Shown piece after piece: positions 20,191 through 28,623 of a stretch of 64,000 bases of DNA. The stretch spans positions 1-64,000 of the forward strand of contig JAFZIL010000063.1 in NCBI GenBank assembly GCA_017554385.1. The letters are read 5' to 3'. The notes beneath the pieces are model-generated. The model saw only the letters and a list, made by a program, of their open reading frames with translations, did not search any database and was not told the origin of the DNA. The DNA comes from Prevotella sp. (GTDB lineage: Bacteria > Bacteroidota > Bacteroidia > Bacteroidales > Bacteroidaceae). The position numbers and the translations under genes are program-made. How positions within the stretch are numbered: the first letter of the stretch is position 1; every line of letters starts with the position of its first letter.

Positions 20191-20225
20191 CCCACACCGC
20201 ACGTCTAAGCCCTCCTTGCTGATGT

Positions 20226-20290
20226 CATTACAAAGTATTTGTAGCGACATTACAAATACTTTGTAACGACATTACAGACTATTTGTAATA
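20226..20290. repeat. 22-bp-periodic array of TACAAAnnnTTTGTA palindromes
   Basis: Three near-palindromic 15-mers lie at 20229-20243, 20251-20265 and 20273-20287: TACAAAGTATTTGTA, TACAAATACTTTGTA and TACAGACTATTTGTA. Spacing is exactly 22 bp, about two helical turns, with spacers GCGACAT and ACGACAT. The first two are also perfect inverted repeats of each other and can form a 15-bp hairpin. Lying 39 nt after the GH29 stop, it could be a multi-site operator or a 3' hairpin; there is no T run. Confidence 0.7.
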
Positions 20291-20317
20291 GCGTTATGAC
20301 TTTTTCTCGAAATAATG

Positions 20318-20400
20318 GCCAAAAATGCTATCGAATGTTCGCTTTACCTCGAGAAAAAGGCAAAAAATGCTATCAAATATTCACTTTCTTGCGAGAAAAA
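20318..20400. repeat. two degenerate 41-nt direct repeats
   Basis: Unit A (20318-20357) and unit B (20359-20400) share GGC-AAAAATGCTATC-AAT-TTC-CTTT-GAGAAAAA with scattered differences. A 67-codon open frame (20315-20518) crosses them and reads as a repeated AKNAI-YSL--EK peptide, but it has no promoter word nearby and no recognised family. I treat the region as a repeat, not a gene. Confidence 0.5.
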
Positions 20401-20670
20401 TGTGCAAAAAGTAGCCAAATTTAAGCAAAAATCGGCGGTTTTTCCTCAAAAAAGCAGTTTGTTGTCATATTTTCATTTGTTGTTATCATTCGCAACAACC
20501 AGATTATCAATAAATTAACTAACGAATAACAACAAAACAACAAATCCGACAAAAAAATTCTTGATAATAACAGTTGAAACCATCTATATAGTACGTCACT
20601 CGTTGTGCCATAATGCGGGGTGAAAATGAAATTTTTTCCTCATTTTCCTTCTTAATTTCAATACTTTTTG

Positions 20671-20678
20671 TATCTTTG
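20671..20678 (+). promoter_or_regulatory. -7 box driving the hsdM leader
   Basis: TATCTTTG matches TAnnTTTG and is followed by GCATC. Transcription from about 20685 would give a leader of about 340 nt before hsdM, far longer than any other leader here. Confidence 0.5.
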
Positions 20679-20684
20679 CATCAA

Positions 20685-21025
20685 GTATCGCCGAAAGCAC
20701 CGTAAACGGTGCACGCTTCGCCAGCGAGGCGCTTTTCCTTGAGCGCAGGGTGGCGGTGCGATTTTTGAGGGAAATAACAAAACAGCATTAATGTTGTTGG
20801 TAATATCTGGGAACCTGAGAAATTCATAGATATTCATATAGTCAACGACAAGTTAATGCCTATGCGATAGCGTAGGCACGACTTATCAGACTATATAGGC
20901 AATCTCAGGGCCTCCAGATATGGGTAAGTAGCGTTCTACGCTATTTCCATGTCCGGAGGTCTTGGTTTTATGCCTATAATCATGCCGATGACGAGTGTGC
21001 TGCCTAAAACTATATCGCATAGACT
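20685..21025 (+). ncRNA. long structured leader RNA upstream of hsdM
   Basis: No protein-coding frame is evident, but many helices can be drawn. They are: GCACCG/CGGTGC near 20698-20713; AATATCT 20802-20808 with AGATATT 20828-20834; CCTGAGA 20814-20820 with TCTCAGG 20903-20909; TGCCTATGC 20857-20865 with GCGTAGGCA 20870-20878; TATAGGCA 20894-20901 with TGCCTATA 20971-20978; and a long imperfect hairpin at 20909-20961 with loop TCT. The segment CTATGCGATA (20860-20869) also pairs with TATCGCATAG at 21013-21022, three bases before the hsdM ATG, so two exclusive folds are possible. It does not show RNase P, tmRNA or riboswitch cores that I recognise. Confidence 0.45.
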
Positions 21026-23284
21026 ATGAATCAGAGTCAATATAACCAACTGTTCTCGTTCATCTGGAATATCGCTACAGATGTATTGGTATATGCCTTC
21101 GAGAAAGGCGAATACAAGAAGATCATCATGCCCATGATGGTGCTACGTCGTATTGACGTGTTGTTGGAACCCACCAAGGAGCAACTGCTGAAGCAAAAGC
21201 AGATGTTGGATGCAAACAATATCCAGAATCAAGACCCCATTCTATATACAGTTACTGGCTATCCCTTCTACAACACATCGAAGTTCACCATGAAGACGCT
21301 GAAGAGTGAGACAGACCCGCTGCGCCTGAAGATGAACTTCATAGACTATCTGAACGGATTCAGCAAGGACGTACAGGACATTATCGATAAGTTCCATCTC
21401 CGTCAGATGGTAGACAACCTGACAGAGGCAGAGCGACTGGGTAGTATCATCGAGAAGTTCACGGACGACAAGATTAACCTCTCAAACAAGCCGGTTCTGG
21501 ATGATAAAGGAAATGTACGACTCCCTGGGCTGGATAACCACACGATGGGAACCATCTTCGAAGAACTGCTTCGTAAGTTCAATGAGGAAAACAACGTGAC
21601 TGAGGCGGGTGAACACTTCACACCTCGTGACTACGTGAAATTGTTAGCAGATTTGGCTGTACTGCCTATTGCAGACAAGATTACAGATAATACCTACCAC
21701 ATCTATGACGGCGCTTGTGGCACGGGTGGCATCTTGACCATCGCGCAGGATCGTATCATGGAAATAGCCAATGAACGAGGCAAGAAGGTGCAGGTAAACA
21801 TCTTCGGACAGGAATTGCAACCTGATACGTTCGCTACATGTAAGGCTGACCTAATGATTTCTGAAAACATCAAGTCGTTCCAATATCAACACGGCATGGA
21901 ATCTCGTGAGTATATTGCTTTCGACAGCACCATCTCGCGCGACGGTCATGCAGGCGAGACTTACGACTTCTGCATCAGTAATCCGCCATTCGGTACACCT
22001 TGGAAAGAGGACTTGAAAAAGCGCGGATTGGGTGAAAACGAGAAGAAGAAATTCACAGATTGTCGTTTCTCTGTAATAGATAATGAAGGCAAGGAACTAT
22101 CATTCATTCCTGATATTGGCGATGCGCAGATGATGTTCTTAGCTAATAATCTATCTCGAATGCGTGAGGATACGGCTCTTGGTACTCGTATTGTTGAAGT
22201 ACACAATGGTTCATCACTCTTTACAGGAAATGCTGGTAGTGGAGCCAGCAATCTGCGCCAGTATATTATTGAAAATGATTTGTTGGAGGCTATTGTTGCT
22301 ATGCCTGAAAAAGACTTCTATAATACAGGTATTGGTACATTCATTTGGGTCATCACCAATCGTAAGGAAGAGCGACGCCGTGGTTATGTACAGTTGATTG
22401 ATGCCACAGAAATCAAGTCACCATTGCGAAAGAATTTGGGTGAAAAGAACTGTGAGACCACAGAGGAAGACCGTGCTCAGATTATGAAGCTATTGATGGA
22501 CTTCAAAGATACACCCCAGAGCAAAATCTTCCCCAACGAAGAGTTTGGCTACTGGAGTGTGAACGTTGAAAGACCTCTGAGAGAGAGTATCACCTTAAAC
22601 AGACAAGTTATGCAAAAGGCTGTTAATAGCTTAATGTGTAAAGATGTAGAGCTAAGTGAGGAGTGTAAGAATAAGCTAATAGAACATGGCATTATTCCAC
22701 CTGTTTCTGATGAGATTCCAGAAATAGAAGAAGGAACATCCATATTAGCAGGGCAATATGCAAAGTTTCGCAAGGTGAAACTCCCTAAGAACATTGGACA
22801 GCTGATGGCAGATATTGCTATCAGTCAATCATTAATGACTCTTTGCGATATGATGGATGAAAAAGAAACGTGGCTTGATATGCAAGCATTCGAGAAACGT
22901 TTCAACGAAGTTACTCTGAATTGGGGAATCAAGTTGAAATACCAAAACGTAGAATCTGTTCTACCTATTTTCAGAGAGCGTAATCCAAAGGCTGAGCCTG
23001 TATTAAAGAAAGGTAAACCTGTTGCAGACCCCAAACTCACAGATACGGAGATAATTCCATTCCACTATGAGGGTGGAATTGAGGGTTTCTTGAAAAATGA
23101 GATTCTGCCTTATTCTCCAGATTCATGGGTAGACGAGAAAAGTATTGTAACAGGCTACGAACTCTCATTTACAAAGTATTTCTATAAACCGAAGCAGTTG
23201 CGGACTATTGAGGAAATCAGCCAAGATATTCGTGGTATTGAGCAGCGCACTGATGGTTTGTTGGACGAAATTTTGGGAAAGTGA
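21026..23284 (+). CDS. hsdM: type I restriction-modification methyltransferase subunit HsdM
   Basis: HsdM transfers methyl groups to adenine N6 within the site chosen by HsdS. The 752-residue protein has an N-terminal helical domain, SAM-binding motif YDGACGTGGIL (from about residue 227), catalytic motif NPPF at 319-322, and a C-terminal extension that makes it longer than the usual 500-550 residues. The motif GEHFTPRDYVKLL precedes the SAM site, as in the family. Its stop overlaps the hsdS start by one base. It is preceded by an exceptional structured leader that may control its synthesis. Confidence 0.95.
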   Translation: MNQSQYNQLFSFIWNIATDVLVYAFEKGEYKKIIMPMMVLRRIDVLLEPTKEQLLKQKQMLDANNIQNQDPILYTVTGYPFYNTSKFTMKTLKSETDPLRLKMNFIDYLNGFSKDVQDIIDKFHLRQMVDNLTEAERLGSIIEKFTDDKINLSNKPVLDDKGNVRLPGLDNHTMGTIFEELLRKFNEENNVTEAGEHFTPRDYVKLLADLAVLPIADKITDNTYHIYDGACGTGGILTIAQDRIMEIANERGKKVQVNIFGQELQPDTFATCKADLMISENIKSFQYQHGMESREYIAFDSTISRDGHAGETYDFCISNPPFGTPWKEDLKKRGLGENEKKKFTDCRFSVIDNEGKELSFIPDIGDAQMMFLANNLSRMREDTALGTRIVEVHNGSSLFTGNAGSGASNLRQYIIENDLLEAIVAMPEKDFYNTGIGTFIWVITNRKEERRRGYVQLIDATEIKSPLRKNLGEKNCETTEEDRAQIMKLLMDFKDTPQSKIFPNEEFGYWSVNVERPLRESITLNRQVMQKAVNSLMCKDVELSEECKNKLIEHGIIPPVSDEIPEIEEGTSILAGQYAKFRKVKLPKNIGQLMADIAISQSLMTLCDMMDEKETWLDMQAFEKRFNEVTLNWGIKLKYQNVESVLPIFRERNPKAEPVLKKGKPVADPKLTDTEIIPFHYEGGIEGFLKNEILPYSPDSWVDEKSIVTGYELSFTKYFYKPKQLRTIEEISQDIRGIEQRTDGLLDEILGK

Positions 23285-24606
23285 TGGAGAGGTATAAGGA
23301 TTATAAAGATAGTGGCATCCAATGGATTGGAGAGATTCCGAGTCATTGGAAAGTGGAACCTTTTGGTAGGCACTTTTCATATGGGAAGGGGCTTCCTATA
23401 ACTAAAGCAGATTTACGACAAGCAGGAGTAGCTGTTATTAGCTATGGACAAATTCATTCAAAGCTGAATACAGGACTTACATTAACGGATGAATTAGTAA
23501 GGTTTGTAGACAAGAAATATTTAGAAACAAACCCCAATGCCATTCTTTCTAAAGGGGATTTTATCTTTGCGGATACATCTGAAGATATTGAGGGCTCTGG
23601 CAACTTTGCTTTTAATGATTACAAAGAAACTATTTTTGCTGGATACCACACTGTTGTAGCAAAACCTAAAGATTTATCTTGTCCCAAGTATTATGCTTGT
23701 TTGTTTTCTTCCAAATCTTGGAAAAGACAAATTCAATCTTTGGTTAATGGCGTAAAGGTATATAGTATCAATAAAGGTCATTTAAAGAAATCTATCTTAT
23801 TGATACCCCCTCTCGCTGAGCAGGAAAAAATAGTGAATTATATCGAAAGCAAAACATCGAAGATTGATGCGTATGTTGCGGAGAAGGAGAAAGAGGTACA
23901 ACTGCTGAATGAACTCAAAGAAGCAGAAATCGCCAAAGTTGTCACACAGGGCCTAAACCCGAATGTGAAGATGAAGGATAGTGGTATCTCTTGGATTGGA
24001 ATGATTCCAGAGCATTGGGAAGTTAAGCGTGTTGCCAGCCTATTTACAGGTAAAGTTAATACCAATTCCGATTTCGCATATCAACATGCTTTCAAATTCT
24101 ACTACGGTACTCTTGTTCCCAAAGATGAGGTTGGCGATGCAGAAGAATATAGAGAAACCTATGTGAAATATCAAGTTATTCAGAAAGACGATATCCTGCT
24201 TAACGGACTCAACTTGAACTATGACTTTGTATCGCAAAGGGTGGCTATAGCACCTTCTGATGGTATTATTACTTCTGCTTATATTGTAGCCCGTCCAAGA
24301 AAAGGAACGAATGCGGATTATTACAATTTCCTATTCAAAGCAATGGATAGTAAAAAGCTATTTCATGGAATGGGAACAGGTATTAGGCTTACGCTCTCTT
24401 TCGATGAACTAAAGAAACAGGTAGTTGTATACCCACCTGCTGACGAGCAACATGCCATCGTAGCCTATATCAACGAAAAGACGGCAAAAGTGGAATCTCT
24501 CATTACTGACCTTCAGGCAGAAATTGATTACCTAAAGGAGTACAAGCAGCGGCTCATCGCTGACTGCGTAACAGGAAAAGTGAACGTACAAAATGATGTG
24601 ATATAA
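23284..24606 (+). CDS. hsdS: type I restriction-modification specificity subunit HsdS
   Basis: HsdS chooses the bipartite DNA site for methylation and cleavage. The 440-residue protein has two target-recognition domains, each opening with a related motif (SGIQWIGEIPSHWKV near residue 11; SGISWIGMIPEHWEV near residue 235). Each is followed by a coiled-coil segment (KTSKIDAYVAEKEKEVQLL; KTAKVESLITDLQAEIDYL). The start at 23284 overlaps the HsdM stop (TGATG), giving translational coupling. There is no second hsdS copy in the window for recombination. Confidence 0.94.
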   Translation: MERYKDYKDSGIQWIGEIPSHWKVEPFGRHFSYGKGLPITKADLRQAGVAVISYGQIHSKLNTGLTLTDELVRFVDKKYLETNPNAILSKGDFIFADTSEDIEGSGNFAFNDYKETIFAGYHTVVAKPKDLSCPKYYACLFSSKSWKRQIQSLVNGVKVYSINKGHLKKSILLIPPLAEQEKIVNYIESKTSKIDAYVAEKEKEVQLLNELKEAEIAKVVTQGLNPNVKMKDSGISWIGMIPEHWEVKRVASLFTGKVNTNSDFAYQHAFKFYYGTLVPKDEVGDAEEYRETYVKYQVIQKDDILLNGLNLNYDFVSQRVAIAPSDGIITSAYIVARPRKGTNADYYNFLFKAMDSKKLFHGMGTGIRLTLSFDELKKQVVVYPPADEQHAIVAYINEKTAKVESLITDLQAEIDYLKEYKQRLIADCVTGKVNVQNDVI

Positions 24607-24724: not shown

Positions 24725-25306
24725 TCAAGAATCTTCTTCGTCTTTTGGTTGAATAAAGCCAATGGGCTTTCGAGGCTTTCCTACGGCAGGCTTGGCCTGC
24801 AGTTCTGCCAATGCAGTGCTGATGGCATCAAGTTGAGCACGAGTACTCTCGTTGATGTCGTTCTGGTCAGCAAGAATATCGTTAACCTCATTCTTGAGAT
24901 CTTCGATTTGCTTTCTGAGGTCGAGATAAGTGGCTGCAAGAGGTAACTCGGCCAAGTGGCGATAGGCAACGAATGCTCGCATAATCTTTCGGTTTGCCTG
25001 AACGGCAACTTTAGATTTGAGGACTCCGCTTAACATCGCAACCCCAATTTCAGTGAATGCAAAAGGCATGTATTTAAAATTGCTACCTCGTCCTTTGTTC
25101 AAGGTGCCAATTTGGCATCTTGAAAGTTCATCACTGGTTAATTCAAACATAAAGTCCTCTCCTTCAAAGCGTTCGATATTGCGTCGAACTTGGCGTTTGA
25201 GGTGTGAAGTCTCTACTTCATAGATACTTGCTAAATCGAAATCAAGCATCACACGCTGACCACGAATAAAGTAAATCTTGGATTGGATGTTATCAAGTTC
25301 GTTCAT
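24725..25306 (-). CDS. ORF6N-domain DNA-binding protein, antisense inside the hsd locus
   Basis: The 193-residue protein carries the phage-type ORF6N domain: IYFIRGQRVMLDFDLASIYEV (about 10-30), LKRQVRRNIERFEGEDFMFELTSDEL (about 36-61), then KYMPFAFTEIGVAMLSGVL. A coiled-coil C-terminus follows (LRKQIEDLKNEVNDILADQND). These domains occur in phage antirepressors and in orphan genes lodged in restriction loci; the function here is unknown. The start at 25306 gives the family N-terminus; an upstream ATG at 25357 would place the promoter box inside the gene. It lies between hsdS and hsdR on the opposite strand. Confidence 0.85.
   Translation of the reverse strand: MNELDNIQSKIYFIRGQRVMLDFDLASIYEVETSHLKRQVRRNIERFEGEDFMFELTSDELSRCQIGTLNKGRGSNFKYMPFAFTEIGVAMLSGVLKSKVAVQANRKIMRAFVAYRHLAELPLAATYLDLRKQIEDLKNEVNDILADQNDINESTRAQLDAISTALAELQAKPAVGKPRKPIGFIQPKDEEDS
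25105..25126 (-). repeat. 22-nt inverted repeat, right copy
   Basis: This copy encodes the conserved LSRCQIG region of the ORF6N protein. With the copy at 24701-24722 it brackets about 380 bp containing the 3' two-thirds of the gene. Confidence 0.85.
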
Positions 25307-25326
25307 ATAATTGCTATTAGGCGGTA

Positions 25327-25334
25327 CAAAGGTA
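25327..25334 (-). promoter_or_regulatory. -7 box of the ORF6N gene
   Basis: On the minus strand the site reads TACCTTTG, matching TAnnTTTG, 21 nt before the start at 25306. It shows that the gene has its own promoter opposing the hsd genes. Confidence 0.5.
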
Positions 25335-25443
25335 TAAAAAAATACTGACACTTCCAAAACTTTCAGAGAGATATTACTCTTTTAGAATCATAATGTGTCA
25401 CAATTGTCTGGAATATAAAAGATAATAATAAAATAATAGAAAT

Positions 25444-28400
25444 ATGCCAACAGATGTAAGTGAAAAGCAGTTAGAAACCATTCTCGTGAATTATCTGCGA
25501 GACATTCAGGGATATGAACAGGGGATTTCTGAAGAGTACAGCAAGGACTATTCGCTGGATACGGCGCGAGTGAAGCATTTTCTGCTTTCTACTCAGAAAA
25601 AGAAGGTAGACAATACGGGCTGTTTTGCAAGTGAGATATCTGAACGGAAGTTCTTTACTGAGTTGGCAAAGCAATTGGCAAATCGTGGCGTGACAGATGT
25701 GCTCCGTAAGGGTTTCCGTTTCATCTCGGAACTCTTCGACATGTATTATCCGCTTCCATCAGAGTTGAACCCCACAGCTCAGGAACTATACAAAAAGAAT
25801 ATTTTCTGCGTGACTCGCCAATTGTTCTACAGCAAGGAGAATCAGAATAGCATCGACGTGATGATCTCTATGAATGGTCTGCCATTGATGACATTAGAGG
25901 TGAAGAACCACTATACCGGGCAGACGGTAGAGAATGCAGTAAAGCATTATCAAACAGACAGAGACCCCAAAGATCCTTTGCTGGCCCCCAAACGTTGTGC
26001 TGTACACATGGCTGTGGATGATGATGACATCAAAATGTGTACCTGGCTTTGTGGTAAAGCTTCATGGTTTCTGCCATTCAACAAAGGTGTAAATGGGGGC
26101 GCAGGTAATCCCATCAATCCGAATGGCGTAAAGACCGCCTATCTGTGGGAAGAAATCTTAGCAAAAGAGTCTCTATCGGACATCATAGAGAACTATGCTC
26201 AGGTAGTGAAGAAGAAAGACGAAAAGACTGGTACGGAAAAGCAGAGTGTGGTTTGGCCTCGTTATCACCAGTTGGATTGTGTGCGCAAGTTATTGGCAGA
26301 AACAAAGGCTAAGGGTGTGGGGCAGAGATTCCTTATCCAACACTCAGCAGGCTCAGGTAAGTCGAATTCCATCACGTGGCTGGCTTATCAGTTGGTGGGT
26401 TTACTGGATGGCACACAGGCATTGCTGGATAGTGTCATCGTGGTGACAGACCGTGTGAATCTGGACACACAGATTAAGAACAACATCGTGGCCTTTAAGC
26501 GTCTACAGAACTTGGTCGCATGGGCTGATAGTGCCGAGGCTCTGAGGAATCACTTGGAGAGCGGCAAGAAGATTATCATTACTATCGTACATAAGTTCCC
26601 ATATATATTGGAGGCTATTGGTGGAGAGTTGAAGCATAAGCGTTTCGGCATCATCATCGACGAGGCTCATAGCAGTCAGAATGGTTCGCTAAGTGCCAAG
26701 ATGAATATCGCACTAAGTGGTAATGCCGGTGATGATGATATGGATTTGGAAGACCGGCTAACGGCAATCATTGAGGGGCGTAAGATGGTGAAAAACGCCA
26801 ACTACTATGCTTTTACGGCAACGCCTAAGAACAAAACCTTGCAGATGTTTGGTACGCCCTTCCAACAGCCTGACGGAGAGATAGGACACAAGCCCTTCCA
26901 CGAATACACCATGAAGCAAGCCATAGAAGAGGGCTTCATCATGGACGTATTGGAGCACTATACCACCTACACCTCTTTATATAAGATAGTGAAAGCTGTA
27001 GAGAATGATCCGATGTTCGACAGGAAAGAGGCGATGAAGAAACTGCGTGCTTTTGTGGAGAGCAGACCTGAGACTATTCAGCAGAAAGCAAATATCATTG
27101 TGGAACACTTCCATACGCAGGTCATAGACAAAGGAAAGGTTGGCGGGCAAGCAAGGGCAATGGTTGTGACAAGCAGTATCCTCAGGGCCATAGAGTTCTA
27201 TTATGAGATATCACGTTTACTGAAGGAACGAAAGAGTCCTTATAAGGCTATCGTTGCATTCTCTGGTTCTAAGAACTATGGTGGTAAGGATGTGACGGAA
27301 GCCGACATCAACGGCTTCCCCTCAAAGGACATTGAGGAGAATATGGAGCATGACCCATACCGTATTTTGGTTGTTGCCGACAAGTTCCAAACGGGTTATG
27401 ACCAGCCTTTGCTGCATACCATGTATGTGGATAAGGTATTGACGGATGTAAAGGCTGTGCAGACATTATCACGTCTGAATCGTTGCCATCCAAAGAAGCG
27501 GGATACCTTCGTGCTGGATTTCGCTAACGATGCTGACGATATACAGAAATCATTCCAAAGGTTCTATAAGACCACGATCCTCTCCAAGGAAACAGATCCC
27601 AATAAACTCAATGAGTTGTTGATGCAGATAGAAGAGGCCAATATTTATACAGAGGAAGAAGTAAAGGAACTGAATGTAAAGTATTGGAGCAATGCCCCAA
27701 GAGAAACGCTTGACCCTATCGTGAACAAGACCGTAGAGCGATTCAAGGCACTTGATGAAAAAACGCAGATAACCACGAAGAGTAGCATCAAGGGATTCCT
27801 TCGTACCTATCCCTTTATTGCAGCCGTGATGCCATTCAAGAGCACAGAGTGGGAAATGCTTGATACTTATTTCTCATTGCTCATTCATAAACTGCCCAAA
27901 CTGACAGGTGAGGACTTTACAGAAGGACTGATTGAATCTATAGACTTTGACAAATACCGCCTGATTAAGAATGATGAGAAAAAGATAGAACTGGAGAACA
28001 AAAATTCTGAGATTGCACCTATACCAGTAGGAACTGCCCAGGGGCCGCAAGAACCTGAATTAGCCAAGCTTAGCGACATTCTGAATGAGTGGAACGACAT
28101 TCACTTTACCAACATAGAGAAAGCCAAGGAACAATTGGAAGAACTACCAGAGCGTTTGCGTGCTGACGAGACCTTTGTCAATGCTGCCAAGAACAGCAAT
28201 AAGGAAACGGCCATGCAGCAATGCGCAGCTTCGTTGATGATGATTGTGGCAGGAATGCTAAATGAGAATACCGAATTCTGTCGTTACTATCTTGATAATC
28301 CTGACTTTATGGCAGCAATCAATAATCGGGTATTTGAGTCGGTATATGGCGGTTTATTGTTGTCATATAAAAAAATAGCTAATGTAGAAGACGATAGGGA

Positions 28401-28623
28401 TGTTCGTAATCTTATCTTTGATCGTCTGCACTTTGATAGCGCTGTTAGTGATGGTGAACTACAAATTGAAGTGCAGAAAACGTATGGAGAACGTTATCCA
28501 GGAATGAGCTCTAATGACTGGCGTCACGTGATAGAAGCATATACTCCAATGATTAGAGCGGCTTCTCAGCCAAAGGCCAAAGAAGCCTCGATGAATCAAT
28601 ATGGAATGGCGGCAGAAGAATAG
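25444..28623 (+). CDS. hsdR: type I restriction endonuclease/translocase subunit HsdR
   Basis: HsdR cuts unmethylated DNA after ATP-driven translocation in complex with HsdM and HsdS. The 1059-residue protein has an N-terminal PD-(D/E)XK nuclease (D138 ... E152-V-K154), a Walker A HSAGSGKS at 300-307, a DEAH box at 406-409, and later helicase motifs (FTATPKNKTL, DKFQTGYDQP). All catalytic residues are present, so it should be active. It begins about 840 nt after hsdS with the ORF6N gene between, so it probably has its own transcription start; no clear TAnnTTTG is seen directly before it. Confidence 0.95.
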   Translation: MPTDVSEKQLETILVNYLRDIQGYEQGISEEYSKDYSLDTARVKHFLLSTQKKKVDNTGCFASEISERKFFTELAKQLANRGVTDVLRKGFRFISELFDMYYPLPSELNPTAQELYKKNIFCVTRQLFYSKENQNSIDVMISMNGLPLMTLEVKNHYTGQTVENAVKHYQTDRDPKDPLLAPKRCAVHMAVDDDDIKMCTWLCGKASWFLPFNKGVNGGAGNPINPNGVKTAYLWEEILAKESLSDIIENYAQVVKKKDEKTGTEKQSVVWPRYHQLDCVRKLLAETKAKGVGQRFLIQHSAGSGKSNSITWLAYQLVGLLDGTQALLDSVIVVTDRVNLDTQIKNNIVAFKRLQNLVAWADSAEALRNHLESGKKIIITIVHKFPYILEAIGGELKHKRFGIIIDEAHSSQNGSLSAKMNIALSGNAGDDDMDLEDRLTAIIEGRKMVKNANYYAFTATPKNKTLQMFGTPFQQPDGEIGHKPFHEYTMKQAIEEGFIMDVLEHYTTYTSLYKIVKAVENDPMFDRKEAMKKLRAFVESRPETIQQKANIIVEHFHTQVIDKGKVGGQARAMVVTSSILRAIEFYYEISRLLKERKSPYKAIVAFSGSKNYGGKDVTEADINGFPSKDIEENMEHDPYRILVVADKFQTGYDQPLLHTMYVDKVLTDVKAVQTLSRLNRCHPKKRDTFVLDFANDADDIQKSFQRFYKTTILSKETDPNKLNELLMQIEEANIYTEEEVKELNVKYWSNAPRETLDPIVNKTVERFKALDEKTQITTKSSIKGFLRTYPFIAAVMPFKSTEWEMLDTYFSLLIHKLPKLTGEDFTEGLIESIDFDKYRLIKNDEKKIELENKNSEIAPIPVGTAQGPQEPELAKLSDILNEWNDIHFTNIEKAKEQLEELPERLRADETFVNAAKNSNKETAMQQCAASLMMIVAGMLNENTEFCRYYLDNPDFMAAINNRVFESVYGGLLLSYKKIANVEDDRDVRNLIFDRLHFDSAVSDGELQIEVQKTYGERYPGMSSNDWRHVIEAYTPMIRAASQPKAKEASMNQYGMAAEE

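Follow-up and report, generated by a model that had tools for sequence, protein, structure and literature searches.

A family of leader RNAs with mutually exclusive helices ahead of restriction-modification operons in Prevotella and related Bacteroidales

How restriction systems are kept safe and properly timed is an old question that has so far been answered one system at a time. It is raised again by a locus in a 64,000-nucleotide (nt) stretch of Prevotella sp. DNA (contig JAFZIL010000063.1, positions 1 to 64,000; hereafter the window): why does hsdM, the first gene of a restriction-modification (RM) system, begin behind a long noncoding leader? The leader RNA lies at 20683-21025; a promoter word stands upstream of it at 20671, and hsdM begins right behind it at 21026. 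What we observe is a family of such leaders, seen in their sequence, in covariation, in helices that exclude each other and in their genomic association. Most likely, such a leader is an RNA of about 330 nt, transcribed from a promoter of its own, that acts in cis and regulates the operon behind it, most often an RM operon.

A first-pass annotation of the window had placed a promoter word upstream of hsdM, followed by a noncoding, highly structured stretch, and both features were found. The Bacteroidota promoter word TAnnTTTG is present at 20671..20678 on the + strand as the -7 word TATCTTTG, its sole + strand copy in 20401-21030; the whole window holds 18 and 19 copies on the two strands. No open reading frame (ORF) of at least 60 amino acids occurs in 20685-21025 on either strand. 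The RNA 20685-21060 has a folding energy of -140 kcal/mol, versus -99.9 (standard deviation 5.8) in 100 shuffles (z -6.9). The antisense strand gives a stable fold as well (z -5.4), and the orientation cannot be read from energy alone; it is the distance to the promoter and the G.U-tolerant covariation that favour the + strand.

Relatives of this leader are numerous. Of 100 related genomes searched at the DNA level, 18 had matches, several of them to the promoter word alone. Two covariance models were built from 16 relatives each, R1 for the 5′ domain P1 and R2 for the region from P5 to P7. Of 398 genomes searched in the genus, 124 have an R1 match at E<=0.01 (50/175 among good-quality genomes), with up to six places per genome. 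R2 matched 86/251 genomes and 18/30 genera of the family at E<=0.001; at the same threshold it matched 44/295 genomes of the order, weak matches included, and those of E 1e-3 to 1e-5 were accepted as members only after inspection. Phylum-wide, at E<=1e-5, R2 matched one genome of 296, the window's own. Because searches over more than 40 genomes, including the R1 genus search, used strict filters, these genome counts are lower bounds. The window's P1 scores 75.9 bits with R1, whose training set includes the window itself.

We assembled a census of 123 loci, the model-building loci among them. It comprised 18 of 30 loci from the DNA search (a duplicate, L003, and 11 loci without an R1 match were excluded), 25 of 30 from the R1 genus search (five duplicated earlier ones) and 80 further R1 places taken by rank down to E 2.1e-9, with G050:C4 skipped. 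An R2 position was assigned in 110 of the 123. Leaders of sufficient length numbered 118; 109 were left after removal of near-identical ones, and 98 of these carry R2, at 131-273 nt (median 161) from the P1 start. The promoter word precedes P1 by 30 nt or less in 106 of the 109, at a median distance of 13 (5-95%: 12-13). The start codon lies 285-450 nt past the P1 start in 106/111; among 85 leaders preselected for a spacing of 30-100 nt from strand Z, 84 have it at 33-75 nt. Promoter word, P1, strands X, Y and Z, P5, P6 and P10, in fixed order and with an ORF behind them, are all found in the window. At two loci (L041, L130) an RM-type gene begins about 190-215 nt after P1 and an R2 match is absent; these leaders are apparently shortened. 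Another locus (L008, about 1430-1580) holds a seemingly decayed copy, in which the 5′ part of P1 is fused to a leader 3′ end and a window-type hsdM start; a different hsdM comes next.

The window has no Rfam match at or above gathering threshold, and seven loci (up to E 5) and 19 order-level loci (up to E 1) gave only matches far below it. Neither the T-box model (RF00230) nor the abiF RNA model (RF03085) matches the window or the seven loci. A T-box likeness, AGGGTGG in P1, was considered and then dropped. The window leader is without a match in phages and plasmids alike, and a search of viral contigs for one exact P1 pattern found none. There is strong evidence for a new and large RNA family, one without an Rfam entry, and it probably acts in cis.

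All helices named by the first-pass annotation are present in the letters of the window, and four features absent from its list were added: the P1 domain, P2, X:Y and P10. On the + strand, the P1 domain (20683..20771) is closed by a helix at about 20685-20693/20752-20760, with inner hairpins inside. P2 pairs 20785..20799 with 20843-20859. Strand X (20803..20820) pairs with strand Y (20903..20921), 20803-20810 with 20914-20921 and 20814-20820 with 20903-20909. P4 joins 20836..20843 to 20889-20896. The local hairpin P5 (20857..20878) is formed by TGCCTATGC/GCGTAGGCA (20857-20865/20870-20878) through eight Watson-Crick pairs and one G.U. P10 pairs 20869..20875 with 20936-20942, and P6 (TATAGGCA/TGCCTATA) pairs 20894..20901 with 20971-20978. 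P7, the Y:Z hairpin (20905..20965), is the long hairpin of the annotation redrawn with these bounds. Finally, P9 is the annotation's alternative pairing of CTATGCGATA (20860..20869) with TATCGCATAG (21013..21022); all 10 of its 10 positions pair, and its start-proximal strand ends 3 nt ahead of the ATG at 21026.

Compensatory base changes across homologues, whose absence the annotation had named as a refutation, are abundant, and the leader RNA that it proposed stands. We used an alignment-free swap test, in which duplex energies of each leader's own strands are compared with those of strands swapped among the 98 leaders (2000 permutations). For X:Y, own strands gave -25.7 kcal/mol and swapped ones -12.0 (z -32). 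The z values of the other helices were -25 for P4, -22 for Y:Z, -16 for P2, -14 for P6 and for P10, -12 for P5 and -11 for P8 (ACTTATC with GATAAGT); X1:X2 and the terminal hairpin gave -3.9 and -4.3. Controls reached -0.9, -2.7 and +3.1, with +2.4 in a companion test, and those for P10 were -4.1 and +2.5. Because one P10 control reached -4.1, values near -4 are unreliable.

Alignment A4, 56 leaders hand-picked mainly for high R2 score, agrees on the best helix: X:Y has 96.2% and 99.7% of its cells paired and two-sided changes in 13/15 pairs, and RNAalifold selects it unprompted. P1 is 95.1% paired with two-sided change in 10/18 pairs (16 sequences; 0/500 shuffles), P5 95.6% with 4/9, and P6 85.9% with 6/8. 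In P2, seven pairs are 84.2% paired, five of them with two-sided change, and the remaining eight only 49.7%; in P7, 25 pairs are 86.3% paired, 16 of them two-sided, and the innermost two 44.1%. P10 is 94.4% paired with 6/7 pairs two-sided over 94 rows of an alignment not fitted to it; on A4 it has 88.5% and 3/7, a pair number that 299 of 500 shuffles reach and a cell number that none does. P5, P7 and P10 vary by paired substitutions through G.U intermediates. Taken as a whole, Fold I (X:Y, P4, P4b and P5) is 82.1% paired versus 66.2% when shuffled (0/500), its pair-type count not exceeding that of shuffles. Fold II (P2, P9, P6 and P7) beats all 500 shuffles in paired cells and covariation score, and its pair types are not clearly above them (62/500). 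An apparent near-absence of G.U in X:Y was dropped as a feature, since it shrank to 11%, versus 19% in Y:Z, when the helices were re-found singly. Orthogonality of X:Y within genomes was not seen: cross-pairing averages -14.2 in 116 ordered pairs within genomes and -14.1 in 11,656 between them.

Strand Y is common to the X and Z pairings. X:Y and Y:Z exclude each other because both claim the same Y bases, a median of 16 nt and at least 8 nt in 98/98 leaders. Prefix folding predicts a hand-over in which X:Y gives way to Y:Z for 75 of 85 leaders, and the two global folds are near isoenergetic, differing by -0.7 (standard deviation 12.4) kcal/mol over the 85. As far as sequence can tell, X:Y against Y:Z is the best-supported candidate switch, and it was absent from the first-pass annotation. 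Of what marks a riboswitch, a conserved aptamer and an exclusive expression platform, the exclusive-helix part is seen. For an intrinsic-terminator attenuator, a G+C helix with a U run directly behind it and an anti-terminator in competition, the signs are mixed: P10 is conserved, P5 competes with it, and at least five T stand in the next 8 nt in 55/98 leaders versus 6.9% of random 8-mers, but folding does not favour P10 and the U run also pairs within P7.

A mechanism can be proposed on this basis. During transcription, P1 would fold first and P5 next, and Y would then pair with X; on emerging, Z would displace X from Y, forming the long P7 hairpin. In a second set of pairings (P2, P9, P6 and P7) the sequence beside the start codon would be masked; in a third, P10 and the U-rich run behind it resemble an intrinsic terminator. 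Which state is reached, and with it the level of expression, would depend on some signal, whose binding site may be P1 or the surroundings of X and Y. Shine-Dalgarno starts are rare in Bacteroidota, so an open A/U-rich region before the ATG matters. The action in cis is inferred, and so are the direction of control, the signal and the output, termination or access to the start.

Several results weigh against such a switch. The folding was computed from nearest-neighbour energies and took no account of pseudoknots or kinetics, and in prefix folding P10 rises above 0.5 in 0/85 leaders and P9 in 13/85, full length included. Because P10 is never and P9 rarely favoured, the OFF states would need help. 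The U run also pairs within P7, and that of the window is interrupted (ATTTCC). On fixed columns P4 is 46.9% and P4b 55.1% paired; P9 is 52.8% paired there, with 313/500 shuffles at least as good and no covariation. Lastly, among the genus loci listed R2 is found at just 2/30 HsdM_N loci; most HsdM loci are without the leader, and the notion of an hsdM-specific feature was not borne out.

For P9 itself, other comparisons are more favourable. Its swap test gives z -9.4 (0/2000). Across 85 leaders, pairing of the P5 arm with the start-proximal sequence of the same leader gives -12.1 kcal/mol, versus -9.2 with sequences of other subfamilies and -7.6 with its own sequence shuffled; the other P5 arm, as control, gives -10.2. 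Own-arm preference appears in 24/38 start-proximal subfamilies, an equally good fit being reached by a mean of 30% of the cross pairs and 20% of the shuffles. P9 is found with differing letters before unrelated genes, its end no more than about 4 nt from the ATG or overlapping it; strong examples stand before helicases, 'MPNKDES' proteins and HsdM, and it is weak in several Eco57I-type leaders. On fixed columns a register shifted by -2 outperforms the proposed one, and in the window in isolation the local hairpin stands at 0.99 and P9 at 0.01. We regard P9 as real in the window's branch and as not universal. The annotation had described a leader whose P5 arm pairs either locally or with the start region. 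Its long leader RNA and exclusive folds hold up, and the start-site pairing does so in those 24 subfamilies; as the general alternative fold, P9 does not, given the fixed columns, the remaining subfamilies and the favoured local hairpin.

What lies behind the leaders speaks to their role. A first gene is readable at 111 of the 123 genus loci (of the 12 without an ORF, 10 meet a contig end within about 510 nt, the exceptions being L077 and L110), and at 101/111 it belongs to RM clusters of unrelated kinds. Classes were assigned by BLAST clusters, with Pfam on representatives and on 84 of the 111. They are PLD-SNF2 helicases (27 loci), 'MPNKDES' proteins linked to Eco57I (17), Eco57I/MmeI-type proteins (16), HsdM (13), EcoRI-type methylases (10), type III Res (6), N6_N4 methylases (6), D12 methylases (4) and two further methylases (L121, L128). 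The helicases are counted as RM because methylase-like genes follow them, one an Eco57I by Pfam (L134), one with only a sub-threshold MmeI helicase-spacer match (L109) and the others judged by eye; with helicases set aside, the RM share is 74/84. For both helicases tested (L134, L109), the best PADLOC match is a candidate HKD+Snf2 family. In the 'MPNKDES' cluster, L020 on its own matches no Pfam family, L060 matches Eco57I, and at L068 the next gene matches a type IIG enzyme. The label 'hsdM leader' was dropped, as relatives precede other HsdM types, PLD-SNF2 helicases and methylases. R2 is found at 6/29 EcoRI-methylase loci, with one more through R1 alone. None of nine promoter-only control loci, read by eye, precedes an RM gene. 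In other genera of the family about 20/28 loci look RM-like by eye and five clearly do not; at order level, the six strongest loci beyond the family (L201-L206) have genes that read as RM, L206 being the one tested with Pfam.

First genes outside the RM clusters are a DrmD-like helicase (L007), one whose second gene is a C5 methylase (L081), SusD-like (L063), AMP-binding (L067), SLT (L095) and TPR (L139) genes, two without a Pfam family match (L127, L137) and two short ORFs resembling nothing known (L065, L114). The leaders before the SusD-like, AMP-ligase and transglycosylase genes (L063, L067, L095) have good R1 and R2 scores and are possibly remnants left by loss of an RM operon. At L127 (1455-6108) the leader precedes an uncharacterised gene and then a gene with weak HerA/mads_8 matches, which may be a non-RM defence operon. 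In two genomes of another Bacteroidales family (G716, G908), the RNA core without P1 scores ten times per genome (L273-L292), its P7 strand often like GTCCCACG and then about seven T. Downstream are a BspA-like LRR surface protein (Pfam, L274), similar-looking ones and other genes, including a ZorA2/ZorB2 pair (PADLOC, L275) and a restriction helicase (L291).

In 76 of 90 cases a leader and its nearest relative have the same gene family behind them (14 expected). With P1 alone, the neighbour's gene family agrees in 28/90 only, and similar leaders occur before unrelated genes (L066, helicase, and L056, HsdM; L033 and L072). By sequence comparison, the leaders appear mostly to travel with their operons and at times to be exchanged.

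Other explanations have to be weighed against a regulated cis-acting leader. The hand-over and the near-equal global folds would also suit a ligand-free kinetic timer, in which translation of each transcript is possible only up to the displacement of X by Z and the formation of later helices, so that every transcript yields one burst and no sensor is required; we think this unlikely, since P1 is conserved though it has no role in a timer and P9 is mostly open in the full-length RNA. The leader might instead be cut or terminated and work elsewhere as a trans-acting RNA, the downstream gene being expressed by read-through. PMC12373285 proposes as much for abiF RNA and describes RNA-based control of this kind for AbiF, and P10 with its U run is terminator-like. 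This is improbable, because in many leaders the pairings extend to only a few nt from the start codon, the leaders track the downstream gene, and no common partner protein is evident among unrelated downstream proteins. A non-switching 5′ structure, serving passively to stabilise or insulate the mRNA, would account for the strong folding and the compact 5′ domain, but one helix would suffice for it, yet two exclusive helices on Y both covary; we rate it lower still.

The first-pass annotation had suggested that the leader delays restriction until methylation is established, and P9 is indeed able to cover the hsdM start region. This purpose is not supported and seems very improbable: the leader is on hsdM, and no copy was found at hsdR (25444), R1 and R2 matching the window's + strand at 20683 and 20853 alone; its relatives are found before single-chain systems as well as before methylase-first and Res-first ones. 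Least probable of all is an element acting as DNA, which would spread RM operons as a recombination site or as the boundary of a cassette. The closely similar leaders before a helicase and an HsdM, and the low agreement of P1-only neighbours, would fit it, against which stand the paired substitutions with G.U intermediates in P5, P7 and P10 and the promoter at a fixed distance. A regulated cis-acting leader is the reading that we prefer. A bolder version, a dedicated defence-control RNA forming one sensing switch class across Bacteroidales with infection or naive DNA as its cue, is possible but tentative; if true, it would set the expression of any defence operon behind it.

T-box and ribosomal-protein leaders place one RNA architecture ahead of many operons. 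The leader family resembles these riboswitches and attenuators in that respect, in its exclusive helices and in an output that would be terminator-like or start-covering; it differs in the absent Rfam match and in regulated genes that were found to be mostly RM systems. RM systems are also controlled by C proteins. Control by these and by RptR, a repressor of RM systems according to PMC12255303, is likewise shared, but exerted by repressor or activator proteins and not by RNA. A review (PMC12707154) covers control of RM expression by repressing methylases, antisense RNA and single hairpins, with hairpins at REase starts, EcoRI and Eco29kI antisense RNA and EcoP15I res delay as examples. These too are RNA-level control where hairpins and antisense RNAs are concerned, but they concern single systems and mainly the endonuclease, whereas the leader family precedes the first gene of the operon in unrelated systems. 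In PMC12373285, the abiF RNA motif (RF03085, RCd22) and the AbiD1 5′ untranslated region, which is bound by a phage protein, exemplify RNA control of Abi genes; as here, a structured RNA precedes a phage-defence gene, and riboswitch-like termination is proposed. The abiF RNA is 132 nt or shorter and serves one toxin family there, and the leader family matches no such model. We found no description of this RNA, nor of a leader common to unrelated RM systems, in the accessible parts of the literature, including Weinberg 2010 (PMC2864571). Fremin and Bhatt (PMC8040213) report many unnamed candidates, which may include this leader RNA. Many different defence systems of bacteria may be under the control of one RNA device. 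An RNA common to unrelated restriction types would give one handle on many of them, predicts pairings that can be mutated and leaves a common signal to seek, and the family adds a search model for defence operons.

Behind the window leader, hsdM (21026..23284, Pfam HsdM_N and N6_Mtase), hsdS (23281..24606, Methylase_S) and hsdR (25444..28623, HSDR_N and SWI2_SNF2), all on the + strand, are confirmed by Pfam as a type I RM system. hsdR has no leader and lies behind a gene of the opposite strand: an ORF6N-domain gene at 24725-25357 (-) separates it from hsdS. Between the fucosidase gene and the leader, 20222-20400 holds short inverted and direct repeats (ACAAAGTATTTGTA / TACAAATACTTTGTA; AAAAATGCTATC repeated).
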